Assembly (NCBI GenBank): GCA_937924505.1 | Contig: CALDSR010000003.1 | Span: forward strand, 36,447 to 100,446 | DNA: 64,000 nucleotides | Reading direction: 5' to 3' | From: an uncultured Granulosicoccus sp. | Lineage (GTDB): Bacteria; Pseudomonadota; Gammaproteobacteria; Granulosicoccales; Granulosicoccaceae | Shown: in pieces, positions 15,183-20,627 of the stretch | Layout of the letters: each line of letters opens with the position of its first letter | Numbering within the stretch: the stretch's first letter is position 1 | Notes under the pieces: generated by a model | Told to the model about the DNA's origin: nothing | The model's input: the letters and a program-made list of their open reading frames with translations, nothing else | The model's database searches: none | Position numbers and translations under genes: made by a program

Positions 15183-15268
15183 TCGGCTGAATTGGTAGCG
15201 AAAGTGAGGCGAGGTGTGCACAGTCCCGCCGCTCATTATATGATGAGCCATCGCGACGGGGGTTGATC

Positions 15269-15580
15269 ATGGGTATTGGGACTTTTCTAGGTAAATTGTT
15301 TGGCAGTTCGGGGGGCGGTGACGGCGCTAGTCAAGGAGTAGCTTCAGATCCGATTGAACACGAGGGATTCGTCATCGTTGCAAACCCGATCAAGGAAGGT
15401 GGTCAGTACAAGACGGCGGGAACGATCAGTAAACGTGTGGGTGAGGAAGAAATGTCGACCCAGTTCATTCGCGCAGACAATCACGCTGATCAGCAATCAG
15501 CGATAGATCACTCCGTACAAAAAGCCAAACAGATCATTCGCGAGCAGGGTGATCATATGTTCGATCGCGCGAATGTTTGA
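15269..15580 (+). CDS. HlyU family protein
   Basis: 103 residues from ATG 15269; a TTG two codons earlier is less likely. It matches the HlyU family (Pfam Transcrip_act HlyU): EGFVIVANPIKEGGQYKTAGTISK, STQFIRADNHADQQSAIDHSVQKAKQIIREQGD. The founding Vibrio HlyU label has been applied to more than one family; this small protein has no obvious winged-helix DNA-binding sequence, so its regulatory role is uncertain. It sits 18 bp before the protease gene on the same strand and is probably co-transcribed. Confidence 0.8.
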   Translation: MGIGTFLGKLFGSSGGGDGASQGVASDPIEHEGFVIVANPIKEGGQYKTAGTISKRVGEEEMSTQFIRADNHADQQSAIDHSVQKAKQIIREQGDHMFDRANV

Positions 15581-15598: not shown

Positions 15599-17125
15599 TT
15601 GATCAGTGGTGTGCTCAGGTTTTCCACAATTTTTTTTTCATTCATTTTTATTGTCGCGACTGAGGCCCACGCGCAGGCGCTGAATTTTGAGGCAATCGGT
15701 GATAACCCTGTTGTGCCGGAACTGAGCCCCGGTACCGCTCGTGTTCGTGCTGCCTTGGTCGACTCCGGCATCAATTACCTGTTACCGGAAATTGCCCATG
15801 GTCTCGCCAGAGATGCAGACGGCAAGCTTATCGCCTATGACTTTTGGGACATGGATGATAGGCCGTTTGATTCACACCCGTTGTCCAATGGTCGTGTTGT
15901 CAGGCATGGCACACGTACGGCGTCGCTGTTCATGCACGAAGCACCCGATGCGGCTCTGGTCGCCTATCGCTATCCGCGACCTGACATGACACGCATGCGA
16001 CAGTTGATACAACATGCTGTCGACAATGATGTTCGTGTTATTGGCCTGCCACTCGGTAGTAATCGATCTGATCTCTGGACGGTATTTGCAGAGGTGGCGC
16101 GTGAGAACCCTGATTTGTTATTCATTGCGTCTGCCGGAAACAACGGACGTGACATTGATCAGGAGCCGGTCTATCCAGCAGCACTGGATCTGGATAATAT
16201 GTTGGTAGTGACCTCAGCCGATGATTTTGTCAGGCCAGCCGATGGCGTAAACTGGGGTCGCAATAGTGTTGACTACCTCGTTCCGGCCGAGAATCGGCGC
16301 GTCATTGAGTTTGATGGTTCCACAGGCAAGGCATCCGGCTCGAGCTATGCCGTACCGCGAGCGCTTGCCTTGGCGGCCCGTCTTGTCGCGGTTCATCCAG
16401 ATTTCACCGCCGAAGATATTCTTCAATGGATTAGAAGACGATTTGCTGATGGTACAGCGCCACATCAAATAGGTTCTGGGTATTTGGCTGACCCGCAGAT
16501 CGGTATAACGCAGACACCGCTTGTTGAGAAACAAAGTAGTTATACGCCGACCAAGGTTACGGTCGACACCGAAGAAACGACTGACGGACCTGCAGACTTT
16601 CTGTCTGTTCCCGTTGAATTGATCGTTCTGAATTCAGCCTATGATGATCAACGTATCAGTGCCATGCTCGATCAGGCTGCTGGAATTTTGCAACAGTGTG
16701 CATTCAATATTGCGCATGTTGACATCCTGCATGCGCAGGTTGCACAGTATCAACAGGATCTGAGTACTGGTCCTGCTAAAACGGTCATGCAATCGCTGCG
16801 TTCCAGTGGGCCCGACAGGAAGCTCACCATTGTGCTCGCGCACGATACCCGTATGCAATTGGCGTTCGATGCTGAAGCATTTGGTCGCGCCAATACTCGT
16901 AACCGACCTTGGTTAACTGATTCGGTCTGGCTGACGGTGGCGCTTGAAGACGAAGGAATTGCACTCGCGCACGAGATGTTTCATGTGCTGGCAAATTCAG
17001 GTGAGCATACGACGACGGACGGCAATTTGATGTTGGCTCGAACGACGGGTAATAATGTAAAGCTGAACGATAGGCAATGTCGTGCGGCGCGGCTTAATGC
17101 GCAGCGTCATGGCTTGGTTCGATAG
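15599..17125 (+). CDS. Exported subtilase fused to a zincin-like HExxH domain
   Basis: 508 residues. The TTG start has AGGG 8 bp upstream; GTG 15611 is an alternative. Signal peptide: TIFFSFIFIVATEAHA. The S8 subtilase core has Asp55 (ALVDSGIN), His103 (RHGTRTASL), oxyanion Asn181 (ASAGNNG) and Ser249 in GSSYAVP, a variant of GTSMAxP. After a linker (about 300-335), a second domain of about 170 residues ends with HEMFHVLANSGEH (His458, Glu459, His462, then Glu469/His470) and GNLML, the zinc site and NLM turn expected of a metallopeptidase. Both active sites look intact by motif, so the protein may be a dual serine/metallo protease. The second domain's family is not recognised. Confidence 0.8.
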   Translation: MISGVLRFSTIFFSFIFIVATEAHAQALNFEAIGDNPVVPELSPGTARVRAALVDSGINYLLPEIAHGLARDADGKLIAYDFWDMDDRPFDSHPLSNGRVVRHGTRTASLFMHEAPDAALVAYRYPRPDMTRMRQLIQHAVDNDVRVIGLPLGSNRSDLWTVFAEVARENPDLLFIASAGNNGRDIDQEPVYPAALDLDNMLVVTSADDFVRPADGVNWGRNSVDYLVPAENRRVIEFDGSTGKASGSSYAVPRALALAARLVAVHPDFTAEDILQWIRRRFADGTAPHQIGSGYLADPQIGITQTPLVEKQSSYTPTKVTVDTEETTDGPADFLSVPVELIVLNSAYDDQRISAMLDQAAGILQQCAFNIAHVDILHAQVAQYQQDLSTGPAKTVMQSLRSSGPDRKLTIVLAHDTRMQLAFDAEAFGRANTRNRPWLTDSVWLTVALEDEGIALAHEMFHVLANSGEHTTTDGNLMLARTTGNNVKLNDRQCRAARLNAQRHGLVR

Positions 17126-17349: not shown

Positions 17350-18237
17350 TTATTCAATTTCGGCCGACCAGTCATAGTTGTTTATTTGATTGGTTAATAA
17401 GCCCAGGCCCGGGGTTGAATCGGACTGCTCTACATAAGCAAATTCTATCCGGCGTCGCATTTTCGGATCGCTGATTGGTCGGGATTCAAGTGTCGGGTGT
17501 AATAGCGAGAATTTCGGGATTACACTGACGCCAAGGCCATCTTGAATCAGGCTTTGAATCCAGTCTTCTCGCTGGCTGCGAAAAGCCACTGCCAGGTCCA
17601 GTTCACTGTCGGCACAGTAGGCCAGAAAGTCGTTTCGAAACTCGCAGTGCAGGCGATCAACGTAGCGTTCCCCCGCAATAGCGCGCAAAGGTACTTCGTC
17701 CATTGCTGAAAATGCATGTCCGTTGGCGAAAGCTACAACGATAGGTTCTTCAAACAGATCCACGTACTTTATACGATCATGGGCTGCACCACGCCGAGAG
17801 CAAAACGCGCCATCGATAGCGCCGGACAATAACAAGTCTGTGATGCTCGCTGGAGTAACATCGTGTAGCACCAGAGACATCATCGGGTGCGCTGTTTGAA
17901 ATTGCTTAAGCAACCCGCCAAGAGCAACCGGCCCTATGGTGCACATAAGGCCAATGTTCAGTTCATCCAGCTCGCCGCTGGTGACCGCTTTTGCGGTTGT
18001 CCTGACCAGTTTTCTGGTTCTGTCGATTTGCTGAAAATGTGTTCGCAGAGTTTTACCAAGCATGGTCAACTCTGTGTTGCGACCGTCGCGGTGAATCAAC
18101 TCGCCACCCAATTCGGATTCAAGTCGTTTTATAGATTGTGTTAATGCTGGTTGCGTGACATGGCACAGTTCCGCTGCGCGAGTAAAATTTAACGTATCCG
18201 ATACCGCCAGAAAAAAGCGAACCTGATTAAAGTCCAT
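17350..18237 (-). CDS. LysR family transcriptional regulator
   Basis: 295 residues. An N-terminal winged helix-turn-helix (MDFNQVRFFLAVSDTLNFTRAAELCHVTQPALTQSIKRLE, residues 1-60) is typical of LysR. It is followed by a periplasmic-binding-protein-like effector domain (about 90-290, FEEPIVVAFANGHAFS, QREDWIQSLIQDGLGVSVIPK). It is divergent from the cytochrome P460 gene across about 490 bp, so it may control that gene or itself. The effector is unknown. Confidence 0.93.
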   Translation of the reverse strand: MDFNQVRFFLAVSDTLNFTRAAELCHVTQPALTQSIKRLESELGGELIHRDGRNTELTMLGKTLRTHFQQIDRTRKLVRTTAKAVTSGELDELNIGLMCTIGPVALGGLLKQFQTAHPMMSLVLHDVTPASITDLLLSGAIDGAFCSRRGAAHDRIKYVDLFEEPIVVAFANGHAFSAMDEVPLRAIAGERYVDRLHCEFRNDFLAYCADSELDLAVAFRSQREDWIQSLIQDGLGVSVIPKFSLLHPTLESRPISDPKMRRRIEFAYVEQSDSTPGLGLLTNQINNYDWSAEIE

Positions 18238-18726
18238 ATTAATATACCTTAAATTGACTAACTCACAACGTTGATGTCAGGCGATTGGAGCTGAGAGTAT
18301 TTCGGTCTAATGCTCGGGGTGCCAGTTGCAGGAAATATTATATGTAGAAAATACGAGTAATTGATAAATGAAATGGTACTCGTCGTCGTTGGGGTAATCA
18401 GACAGTATCGCACCATCGTGTTGTATTCCAGCGTAGTCTGGCATCAAGCTTTATTTTGCACGCTTGAGTACCAGGTAGAACCGAATGTTTCGCAACATAA
18501 GCATTCGTTATAGTTGTAACTTAAATGGTTATTTCTCCATCAATCTGTTGTTCGTTAGACTTTGTCGTCAGGAGTTTGCCCAAGCAAGCTAACTCCGTTA
18601 AAAAAAAGCAGTCACAGTGAAGAAAGGCACTGGTGTTGGCGCCATAGGTGGCGTGAAGTCCAATCTTAAGAAGTCCAATCCTAAATAGTACGCGATCTTA
18701 AAGAGGTAAGTAAAAGGATGGTGATC
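18238..18726. other. 489-bp divergent intergenic region
   Basis: AT-rich stretch between the lysR-type gene (minus) and cytochrome P460 (plus), holding both promoters. No clear sigma70 pair is identified. Near the right end is a 15-bp tandem repeat (18655-18684). A very short Lys/Gly-rich frame (GTG 18617 to TAG 18688) overlaps that repeat; it is not called as a gene. Confidence 0.5.
18655..18684 (+). repeat. 15-bp tandem repeat, two copies
   Basis: GAAGTCCAATCTTAA (18655-18669) is followed immediately by GAAGTCCAATCCTAA (18670-18684), with 14 of 15 bases identical. It lies 43 bp before the P460 start, in its leader or promoter region. Confidence 0.85.
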
Positions 18727-19293
18727 ATGTTTACGAGGAACATTGCACGGGTAATGCTGTTTTTTTGTGCGGCATTGTTAGTCATGCAAATGTCTGTTGC
18801 TGCGGCCATGGACAAGTTCTCTCCCTATGTGGATGAGAACGGTACGATCTCTTTACCCAATGATTTTCGTCTGCACATGGTGCATCTTGGATCGTGGTTT
18901 GTCGCTGAAGGCGGCGCGAGTGGTTTTCATGATGTGTATACGGAAGCTGCCAGCGCCAAATTTTACAGGGAAAACGGCGCATTCCCGGATGGCGCGACGC
19001 TAGTGAAAGAGTTGCGTGCCCATCAGGCTGGTCAATACACCACTGGTGATAATGTCAATTTTGCCACCGACGGGTTGAAACAGTGGTTCGTGATGGTCAA
19101 GGATAGCACTGGCAGGTTTCCCGACAACCCGGTCTGGGGAGACGGCTGGGGTTGGGCATTGTTCAAGACGACAGATACCAGTGTCAATGCTGCATCCGAT
19201 TACAAGACCGATTGCCTGGGTTGCCATGTGCCAGCCAAGGATTCGGACTGGATCTATGTCGAGGCCTATCCAACATTAACCGCACCTGAGTAA
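18727..19293 (+). CDS. Cytochrome P460 family protein
   Basis: 188 residues from ATG 18727, chosen because AGGA lies 8 bp upstream; ATG 18718 is also in frame. A signal peptide (VMLFFCAALLVMQMSVAAA) exports it to the periplasm. The P460 fold pattern is visible (LPNDFRLHMVHLGSWFV, GWGWALF), with one c-type heme site CLGCHVPAKDSDWIYVEAYPTL at the end. Family members oxidise hydroxylamine or nitric oxide (P460), or bind NO (cytochrome c'-beta). The Lys that crosslinks heme in true P460 cannot be assigned by eye. Possible role in nitrosative stress. Confidence 0.88.
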   Translation: MFTRNIARVMLFFCAALLVMQMSVAAAMDKFSPYVDENGTISLPNDFRLHMVHLGSWFVAEGGASGFHDVYTEAASAKFYRENGAFPDGATLVKELRAHQAGQYTTGDNVNFATDGLKQWFVMVKDSTGRFPDNPVWGDGWGWALFKTTDTSVNAASDYKTDCLGCHVPAKDSDWIYVEAYPTLTAPE

Positions 19294-19304
19294 TAGTTGA
19301 ATCA

Positions 19305-19336
19305 CGAGCGCTAGTAGCAATCGCGAGCGCTAGTAG
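19305..19336 (+). repeat. 13-bp direct repeat between P460 and beta-propeller genes
   Basis: CGAGCGCTAGTAG occurs at 19305-19317 and 19324-19336 (19-bp spacing), just after the P460 stop. It contains the partial palindrome GAGCGCT. Too short to assign; possibly a protein-binding site or slippage product. Confidence 0.7.
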
Positions 19337-19370
19337 AATTAATATTCAATTGTAGAAAAGGAATATTGTT

Positions 19371-20627
19371 ATGCTCAATCAAGCTGTTAGACACATCGTT
19401 TCTTTAGCGCTACTTTCACCCATATTGGTGGCCTGTAGCTCCAGTGATGACGACGATTCGGCAGGTACCCCGCTGGACGGAAGTGCTATTGTCGGGGCCG
19501 TGTATGCAATGGACAATGGAGAGACGGTGAACAACATCGTCGCTTATGCTCGTGCTAACGACGGGTCGTTATCACTGGTTGGCTCAACGGCCACTGAAGG
19601 TCAAGGTACGGGCCCGAACAATGTTGCCAGTGGTCCGGGAGGGGATACTGTTGACCCATTAGCCTCTAACTACTCGCTACAAATGTCATCGGATAACCAG
19701 TTTCTTTTCGCAGTCAACGCGGGTTCTGATCAGATATCCTCTTTTTCGGTCAATGCTGACATGAGCCTGACCCATGTTTCGACCGTCGCCAGTGGCGGTG
19801 GCGACCCGGTCAGCATCGCTACCTCCGGCTCGACACTGTTTGTGGCAAACACAAATACCGGTGTCGGCGACATTGCGCCTTTCTCGATCGGTGCTGACGG
19901 CACCTTGAGCAGCGCTGGCGAAAGTATCGCGTTGAATGGTCGCCCAACGGCTATTGTGTTTAGTCCCGACAGCAACTCGTTGGTGGCAGCGCTGGTTGAT
20001 ACCAATCAGCTTCAGGTTTTCAGTGTCTCGGGTACATCGCTGTCGCAAACACAGCTCTTTACTTACCCGAGTTCACCCGAAGGGAGAAATGTTGCGAACC
20101 CATTCGGGTTGTCAGCATACGAGCGTGGTGGTGCCGAATTCCTGCTGGTTGGTGAAGCGCGCGTATTTGATGCAGACGGCAACGCGGCCCCGCAAACATC
20201 TTCCGTGTCAACGTTTTCCTTGTCGGGTGGTGCGGTGACTCCAGTGAACCTGGACATGCGTACTGATGCCGATAATGACGATACTGTTGGTCCGATTACT
20301 TCGTGCTGGGCGATCACAAACGACGACGGAACCTTGGGTTTTACATCAAATACCTTCTCCAACAACCTGTCATCCTTTACATTGGATGATTCGGGAAATG
20401 CAACCTTGAGTGTGTCTGCCGCCTTTCAGGATCCGGCAGAGGATTTCAACGACGTTGGCTTTACCGATCAGATGGCAATAGGCAGCAGGGTTTATCAGCT
20501 TGCTGGCGCATCCGGGGAAATCATCGTATTTGAGGCTGATGCGACGACAGGTGCTTTGACAGAGATTGATCGCGAATCCAGTGGACTGTCCTTGCTTGGT
20601 GGCAATCAGGGTATTACTGGTTTCTAG
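19371..20627 (+). CDS. Beta-propeller lipoprotein (lactonase-like)
   Basis: 418 residues with AAAAGGA upstream of ATG. Lipoprotein signal ALLSPILVAC (Cys about 22) is followed by an acidic SSSDDDDS spacer. The rest shows repeated blades of the 6-phosphogluconolactonase/3-carboxymuconate cyclase-like propeller type: QMSSDNQFLFAVNAGSDQISSFSVNADMSLTHV, TLFVANTNTGVGDIAPFSIGADGTL, VFSPDSNSLVAALVDTNQLQVFSV. No enzyme activity can be assigned; surface binding is as likely as lactonase activity. Convergent with davB. Confidence 0.82.
   Translation: MLNQAVRHIVSLALLSPILVACSSSDDDDSAGTPLDGSAIVGAVYAMDNGETVNNIVAYARANDGSLSLVGSTATEGQGTGPNNVASGPGGDTVDPLASNYSLQMSSDNQFLFAVNAGSDQISSFSVNADMSLTHVSTVASGGGDPVSIATSGSTLFVANTNTGVGDIAPFSIGADGTLSSAGESIALNGRPTAIVFSPDSNSLVAALVDTNQLQVFSVSGTSLSQTQLFTYPSSPEGRNVANPFGLSAYERGGAEFLLVGEARVFDADGNAAPQTSSVSTFSLSGGAVTPVNLDMRTDADNDDTVGPITSCWAITNDDGTLGFTSNTFSNNLSSFTLDDSGNATLSVSAAFQDPAEDFNDVGFTDQMAIGSRVYQLAGASGEIIVFEADATTGALTEIDRESSGLSLLGGNQGITGF

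Follow-up and report, generated by a model that had tools for sequence, protein, structure and literature searches.

A candidate fusion of an S8 subtilase with a metzincin-like zinc protease from an uncultured Granulosicoccus

The window, a stretch of 64,000 nucleotides from contig CALDSR010000003.1 of an uncultured Granulosicoccus sp. (assembly GCA_937924505.1), contains a gene whose product is probably exported and probably acts as a two-headed endopeptidase, one chain combining two active sites that differ in chemistry (Table 1). The first domain has the motifs and the predicted fold of an S8 subtilase, and the second has an HExxHx7H motif in a region confidently modelled as a metzincin fold. 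The strongest argument for two sites is that both are complete in the readable fused copies. A sequence-only reading of this DNA had already seen two mechanistically different intact protease sites in one chain. Conservation and the confident predicted folds support this, and Asp55, His103, Asn181, Ser249, the zinc motif HEMFHVLANSGEH (458-470) and GNLML are all found where that reading placed them.

Two protease domains in one chain

The window protein has the Asp, His, Ser triad in the order of S8 subtilases, together with the oxyanion-hole Asn. It matches Pfam Peptidase_S8 at 52.2 bits (cut-off 21.8), the only Pfam match above the cut-off, and three subtilase-type NCBIfam models, each far under its cut-off. 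The predicted fold of the first domain is the subtilisin fold. We propose that it cleaves peptide bonds by Asp55-His103-Ser249, with Asn181 in the oxyanion hole.

Conservation was assessed in proteins and in loci. There are 996 protein homologues at E 0.001 or better, and the best 120 of these 996 were examined. The alignment counts refer to 120 proteins, that is, the window protein and 119 homologues, with the window's own database copy, P0002, left out; the C-terminal counts also omit P0010, which ends before the site. The loci were collected by scanning a single genome of each species for the patterns YRYPRPDM and ALAHE[LM][FY]H; this yielded 123 relatives, and the best 80 of the 123 were kept. 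The choice of the reading frame demanded a Ser-site motif, and a main frame was obtained in 79 of the 80 (the contig of L070 begins inside the subtilase). Several homologues are proteins of metagenome-assembled genomes (MAGs) that bear the name S8 or S8/S53 family peptidase and are assigned to Granulosicoccus; together with the gene order, which Granulosicoccus loci share, they make this genus or a close relative the most likely source of the window. The precomputed domain calls of the listed homologues cover the subtilase half only.

The four subtilase residues are invariant in the proteins (Table 1). His103, Asn181 and Ser249 are present in 79/79 loci and Asp55 in 78/79, the contig of L067 starting after the Asp. 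The usual form of the subtilase Ser site is GTSMAxP, and the GSSYAVP of the window protein had been singled out as a departure from it. The variant is indeed there, but it is not peculiar to this protein, being the ordinary form of the family: GSSYAVPR occurs in 109 of the 120 proteins and in 19 of the 79 loci, further common forms among the loci being GSSYAVSR, GSSYAVAR and GSSYAAAR.

Zinc motif and fold of the C-terminal domain

Structure prediction and structure comparison, the check suggested by the sequence-only reading, gave the metzincin fold for the C-terminal region. The model contains the five-stranded sheet, the backing helix, the active-site helix and the C-terminal helix. From the motif and the predicted fold we propose that His458, His462 and His470 bind one zinc ion, with Glu459 as the general base that would activate water. 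Of the segment G475-N476-L477-M478-L479, C-terminal to the zinc motif, Met478 would form the Met-turn beneath the metal.

His458, Glu459, His462, His470, Leu477 and Met478 are each kept in all 119 proteins covering the site, and HExxHx7H stands in the subtilase frame in 71 of the 79 loci. Outside these 71 are L070, L069 (contig end), L075 (unreadable stretch) and six loci with the subtilase only (L074 and L076-L080); L067 is counted among the 71 although its contig starts past the Asp. The sequence-only reading had raised the possibility of homologues without HExxH. The fused homologues retain it throughout (119/119 proteins, 71/71 readable loci). It had also noted that the spacing is not standard for metzincins, and this holds without exception in the proteins and loci examined: the third His is always 8 residues beyond the second. 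In place of the canonical HExxHxxGxxH, 119/120 proteins have HExxHx7H, and 0/120 have the canonical spacing ahead of an [NS][LIV]M. The Glu beside the third His, noted earlier along with the spacing of the metal site, did not stand up. It is Glu469 in the window protein, and since this position is Glu in just 47/119 proteins, it is not a feature of the motif. The conservation of Cys367 and Cys494 suggests a disulphide in the exported protein.

One might take the HExxH for a product of chance, the C-terminal region being then just an ordinary extension of a subtilase, but this has next to no probability. When the window protein was shuffled 20000 times, 1.6% of the shuffles contained HExxH and 0.035% contained HExxHx7H. 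Conservation in 119 proteins and 71 loci, with no motif-less homologue among the covering sequences, leads us to reject chance as the explanation, and the metzincin fold, the Met-turn and the relatives among short proteins also speak against it.

No family library searched here has a name for the domain. Library searches used two alignments: A2, of 11 of 15 chosen slices plus the window, and A3, of 71 of 120 short-protein matches plus the window. A further alignment, A1, has 117 of 121 proteins, without P0002, P0010, P0023 and P0024. No covering family was found for the C-terminal domain in the 72 members of A3, where metalloprotease matches were weak. DUF5700 scored 10.7 bits in the window protein and 13 with the C-terminal domain alone, under its cut-off of 25; across A3 its best E-value was 0.00064 (18 members matching) and that of M13 was 0.0046 (38 members). 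A mycosin match (1.1e-6, 5 members) is put down to rows retaining a piece of subtilase. Pfam M43 gave no row at E 1, either with the window protein or with the 12 rows of A2, and does not appear in the part of the A3 result shown (25 of 31 families); the nearest fold is that of the pappalysins. A sequence search of the PDB with the A2 C-terminal profile gave six rows up to E 10, comprising fragilysin (E 1.4) and ADP-ribosylation factors, the latter taken as chance. A defence-system role was considered and dropped, there being no PADLOC match at E 1.

Table 1. Coordinates of the protease gene, its parts and its upstream neighbour in the window
Feature	Position	Strand	Remarks
Fused S8 subtilase / metzincin-like protein gene	15599..17125	+	TTG start, 508 aa; GTG at 15611 is an alternative start
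Signal-peptide-like N-terminus, residues 1-26, ends AHA-Q	15599..15676	+	read by eye; model helix 7-25
S8 subtilase catalytic domain, residues 46-304	15734..16510	+	
Predicted catalytic Asp55	15761..15763	+	kept in 120/120 proteins
Predicted catalytic His103	15905..15907	+	kept in 120/120 proteins
Predicted oxyanion-hole Asn181	16139..16141	+	kept in 120/120 proteins
Predicted catalytic Ser249 in GSSYAVP (247-253)	16343..16345	+	kept in 120/120 proteins
Interdomain linker, residues 305-332	16511..16594	+	from alignment; predicted local distance difference test (pLDDT) of the model 63 at residues 321-330
Metzincin-like zinc-protease domain, residues 333-508	16595..17122	+	below cut-off for every Pfam / NCBIfam model
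Cys367, proposed disulphide partner of Cys494	16697..16699	+	kept in 120/120 proteins
HExxHx7H zinc motif HEMFHVLANSGEH, residues 458-470	16970..17008	+	119/119 covering proteins; 71/71 readable fused loci
Leu477-Met478, proposed Met-turn	17027..17032	+	119/119 covering proteins; Met in 69/71 loci
Cys494, proposed disulphide partner of Cys367	17078..17080	+	kept in 118/118 covering proteins
HlyU-family gene, ends 18 bases upstream of the protease gene	15263..15580	+	PF10115, E 1.1e-25

The database copy P0002 is 504 residues long, so the start could be the GTG at 15611. Judged by eye, the N-terminus resembles a Sec-type signal peptide, which would direct the protein to the periplasm or beyond.

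Fused and single-domain forms

The fused form is found in records labelled Granulosicoccus, Granulosicoccaceae, Chromatiales, Acidiferrobacter, Thioglobus, Competibacteraceae, an Olavius symbiont, and unplaced Gammaproteobacteria or Proteobacteria, as well as in single MAGs labelled Rhodobacteraceae (L051) and Betaproteobacteria (L071). The domain was also sought in samples of genomes; in the large samples scoring was limited to the first 7 to 10 candidates of each genome, so that misses are possible. In the family of G002, 36 of 48 genomes match, at one place each. Thirty-four of these matches lie in frames of at least 507 residues (one with an internal stop), a count of frame length and not of the subtilase half. 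The other two are weak (E 3e-13, with an internal stop, and 2e-8) and belong to a different short protein beside a gene of tetratricopeptide repeat (TPR)-like type. In the class of G002, 10 of 369 genomes match, eight in frames of at least 507 residues and two in frames of 246 and 234; in the class of G008 it is 7 of 274, six of which overlap with the former matches.

The six loci that stop after the subtilase are all labelled Alphaproteobacteria. Three of these genomes were searched whole, and none contains the metzincin-like domain (9 of the 12 genomes searched in this way match). Within the limit on scored candidates given above, no convincing domain was seen in the Alphaproteobacteria samples either, which gave 1/398 genomes for the phylum and 1/289 for the class, both marginal partial matches (E 5e-4 and 3e-4).

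The metzincin-like domain also occurs by itself. A profile search limited to short proteins gave 381 matches, of which the best 120 were examined, and 119 of these 120 have HExxHx7H. The remaining one, P0239, reads HELSP at this place, its second His being gone, and is likely an inactive copy or a sequence error. Judged by a crude hydropathy rule, 58 of the 120 appear to be complete secreted proteins, and 12 of these 58 have a lipobox-like Cys. Some rows, however, are cut pieces of fused proteins, as P0126, P0131 and P0236 retain a subtilase stretch. The short proteins behind the two weak matches in the family of G002 have the HExxHx7H spacing too; judged by eye, they lie beside a TPR-like and a porin-like gene, in L101 (6318-7004), with a lipobox-like N-terminus, and in L102 (2668-3396).

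N-terminal domain and origin of the fusion

Many relatives are longer than the window protein, having a domain of about 150 residues before the subtilase; an example is L009:7222-9165. It is found in 68 of the 79 loci, including the six labelled Alphaproteobacteria, and in 33 of the 119 listed proteins, which are closer kin of the window. No Pfam match to it was obtained in the five proteins scanned. It may be a prodomain or a chaperone of the subtilase. A hidden copy in the window was sought with a profile from 67 relatives, which matched nothing in six frames. L019 and L067 are without it merely because of the contig start. The ten rows truly without it (the window, L001-L008 and L042) form one group with support of 95 in the subtilase-domain tree; hence, most simply, it would have been lost once, in the Granulosicoccus lineage.

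All trees here are quick trees. In the subtilase tree, built from the 79 loci plus the window, the six sequences labelled Alphaproteobacteria group together, with a Shimodaira-Hasegawa-like approximate likelihood ratio test (SH-aLRT) value of 99. In that of the metzincin-like domain the fused and stand-alone rows are strongly sorted, with 5 changes against a shuffled mean of 42.9. Some stand-alone rows placed among the fused ones may be fragments from contig ends. A single fusion event is likely, as far as the tree can tell.

One working protease or two

We favour the view that selection would keep both domains catalytic. The predicted structure has a predicted template modelling score (pTM) of 0.89, and the domains probably pack into one body, so that the two sites would act side by side on the same protein material.

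Several observations weigh against the two-site reading. For neither protease can a prodomain be recognised in the window protein, which is, to our knowledge, unusual in both classes; Pfam gave no match to the I9 prodomain in it or in the five relatives scanned. The zinc motif is two residues longer than that of metzincins, the best fold matches (rows of ulilysin) are merely 16-17% identical, and two fused loci, L029 and L030, have Leu in place of the Met of the Met-turn (NLL for NLM), with all three His and the Glu retained. The conservation counts are affected by selection, the 120 proteins being the best of 996, and the loci are weaker evidence than the proteins, since HExxH is inside the scan pattern and the Ser site was demanded. 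Finally, the gene neighbourhood points to no substrate or partner gene.

A less probable, indeed unlikely, alternative is that the subtilase is mainly a built-in maturase. The chain would then be a precursor, in which the subtilase cleaves the variable linker to set free or unlock the metzincin-like domain. The latter would be the main worker, and the subtilase would stand in for a missing prodomain or activating partner. The linker region (alignment positions 299 to 338) does vary, from 25 to 92 residues across the 120 proteins, and is modelled with lower confidence; no prodomain match precedes the metzincin-like domain in the window protein; and the signal-like N-termini of the short proteins suggest that this domain can work unfused. 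On the other hand, no subtilase stands beside the stand-alone gene in L086 and L090 (two loci, about 1.5 kb on each side), and the pTM value argues for a packed pair. Moreover, the subtilase-only Alphaproteobacteria genomes searched whole have no metzincin-like domain to mature, so that the subtilase has its own work there. Each domain occurs without the other, hence each has its own work.

It is still more improbable that only the subtilase cuts, the C-terminal domain being a metzincin-fold pseudo-protease or a non-peptidase zinc domain for binding or targeting. The non-standard spacing, the Leu at the Met-turn in two fused loci, the weakness of the matches to many HExxH families and the loss of the second His in P0239 would agree with that. 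However, the fold is a peptidase fold, and the general-base Glu and three His, needless for a pseudo-enzyme, are present in every covering protein.

A bolder version of the two-site reading is tentative, and we hold it as rather doubtful. It combines two statements: the C-terminal domain founds an undescribed metzincin family (HExxHx3[ND]xGxH, then NLM, with a loop longer by two residues), and the fused subtilase took over the role of activator. The result would be a self-activating two-mechanism protease without a classical prodomain, and the Granulosicoccus lineage would have gone on to drop the additional N-terminal domain as well.

Should both sites prove active, many genomes labelled Gammaproteobacteria would have retained a natural double protease of serine and metallo type, open to study with two standard inhibitors and two point mutants. 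A metzincin variant with a longer zinc loop would bear on how strict the HExxHxxGxxH rule is, and a family now called "hypothetical protein" or "S8/S53 family peptidase", where named at all, would receive a name.

Gene neighbourhood

The HlyU-family gene upstream is possibly co-transcribed with the protease gene. It is next to the protease gene in the window and in 8 other loci, and was not found by picking of open reading frames in L001, L004 and L042, where the upstream sequence is present. As to a functional partner, no gene accompanies the family overall in the window and 79 loci. Of the neighbour clusters, the one shared most widely occurs in 21 of the 80; its median distance is 2.5 kb, and its 24 proteins may include paralogues. 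The genes shared near the window copy are common only to Granulosicoccus and a few Granulosicoccaceae loci. Downstream, at 17350-20627, genes for LysR, cytochrome P460 and a lactonase-type beta-propeller lie between the protease gene and an amine-oxidase gene; the fetched flanks of the 79 loci contain no gene that clusters with any of the three.

Comparison with known systems

No subtilase-metzincin fusion was recognised in the open-licence PubMed Central literature, judged by titles and abstract openings, and the spelled-out HExxHx7H motif had no match there. Passages of the MEROPS papers mention that a protein may combine peptidase units from different families, the potato virus Y polyprotein being the example (PMC4702814, PMC5753285), so that the principle of two units per chain is known. 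Like that polyprotein, the window protein has two unrelated peptidase units per chain; here, however, the chain is bacterial and the pair is serine plus metallo.

Among the closest known systems are the S8 subtilases (deseasin MCP-01, thermitase, subtilisin BPN', Plasmodium SUB1, and also the cyanobactin proteases PatA/PagA), from which the window protein differs in GSSYAVP, in giving no I9 prodomain match and in having a second protease domain. The pappalysin-type metzincins (ulilysin, mirolysin, PAPP-A) are 11-17% identical to the C-terminal domain and have HExxHxxGxxH where it has HExxHx7H; they were absent from the six rows of the PDB sequence search. For the adamalysins, ADAM and ADAMTS proteins and fragilysin the identity is 7-19%, and the zinc motif here is two residues longer. 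DUF5700, M13, M78, HtpX and DUF6055 show weak matches at the HExxH helix. Both halves are of known kinds, and the departures are the fusion and the longer zinc motif.
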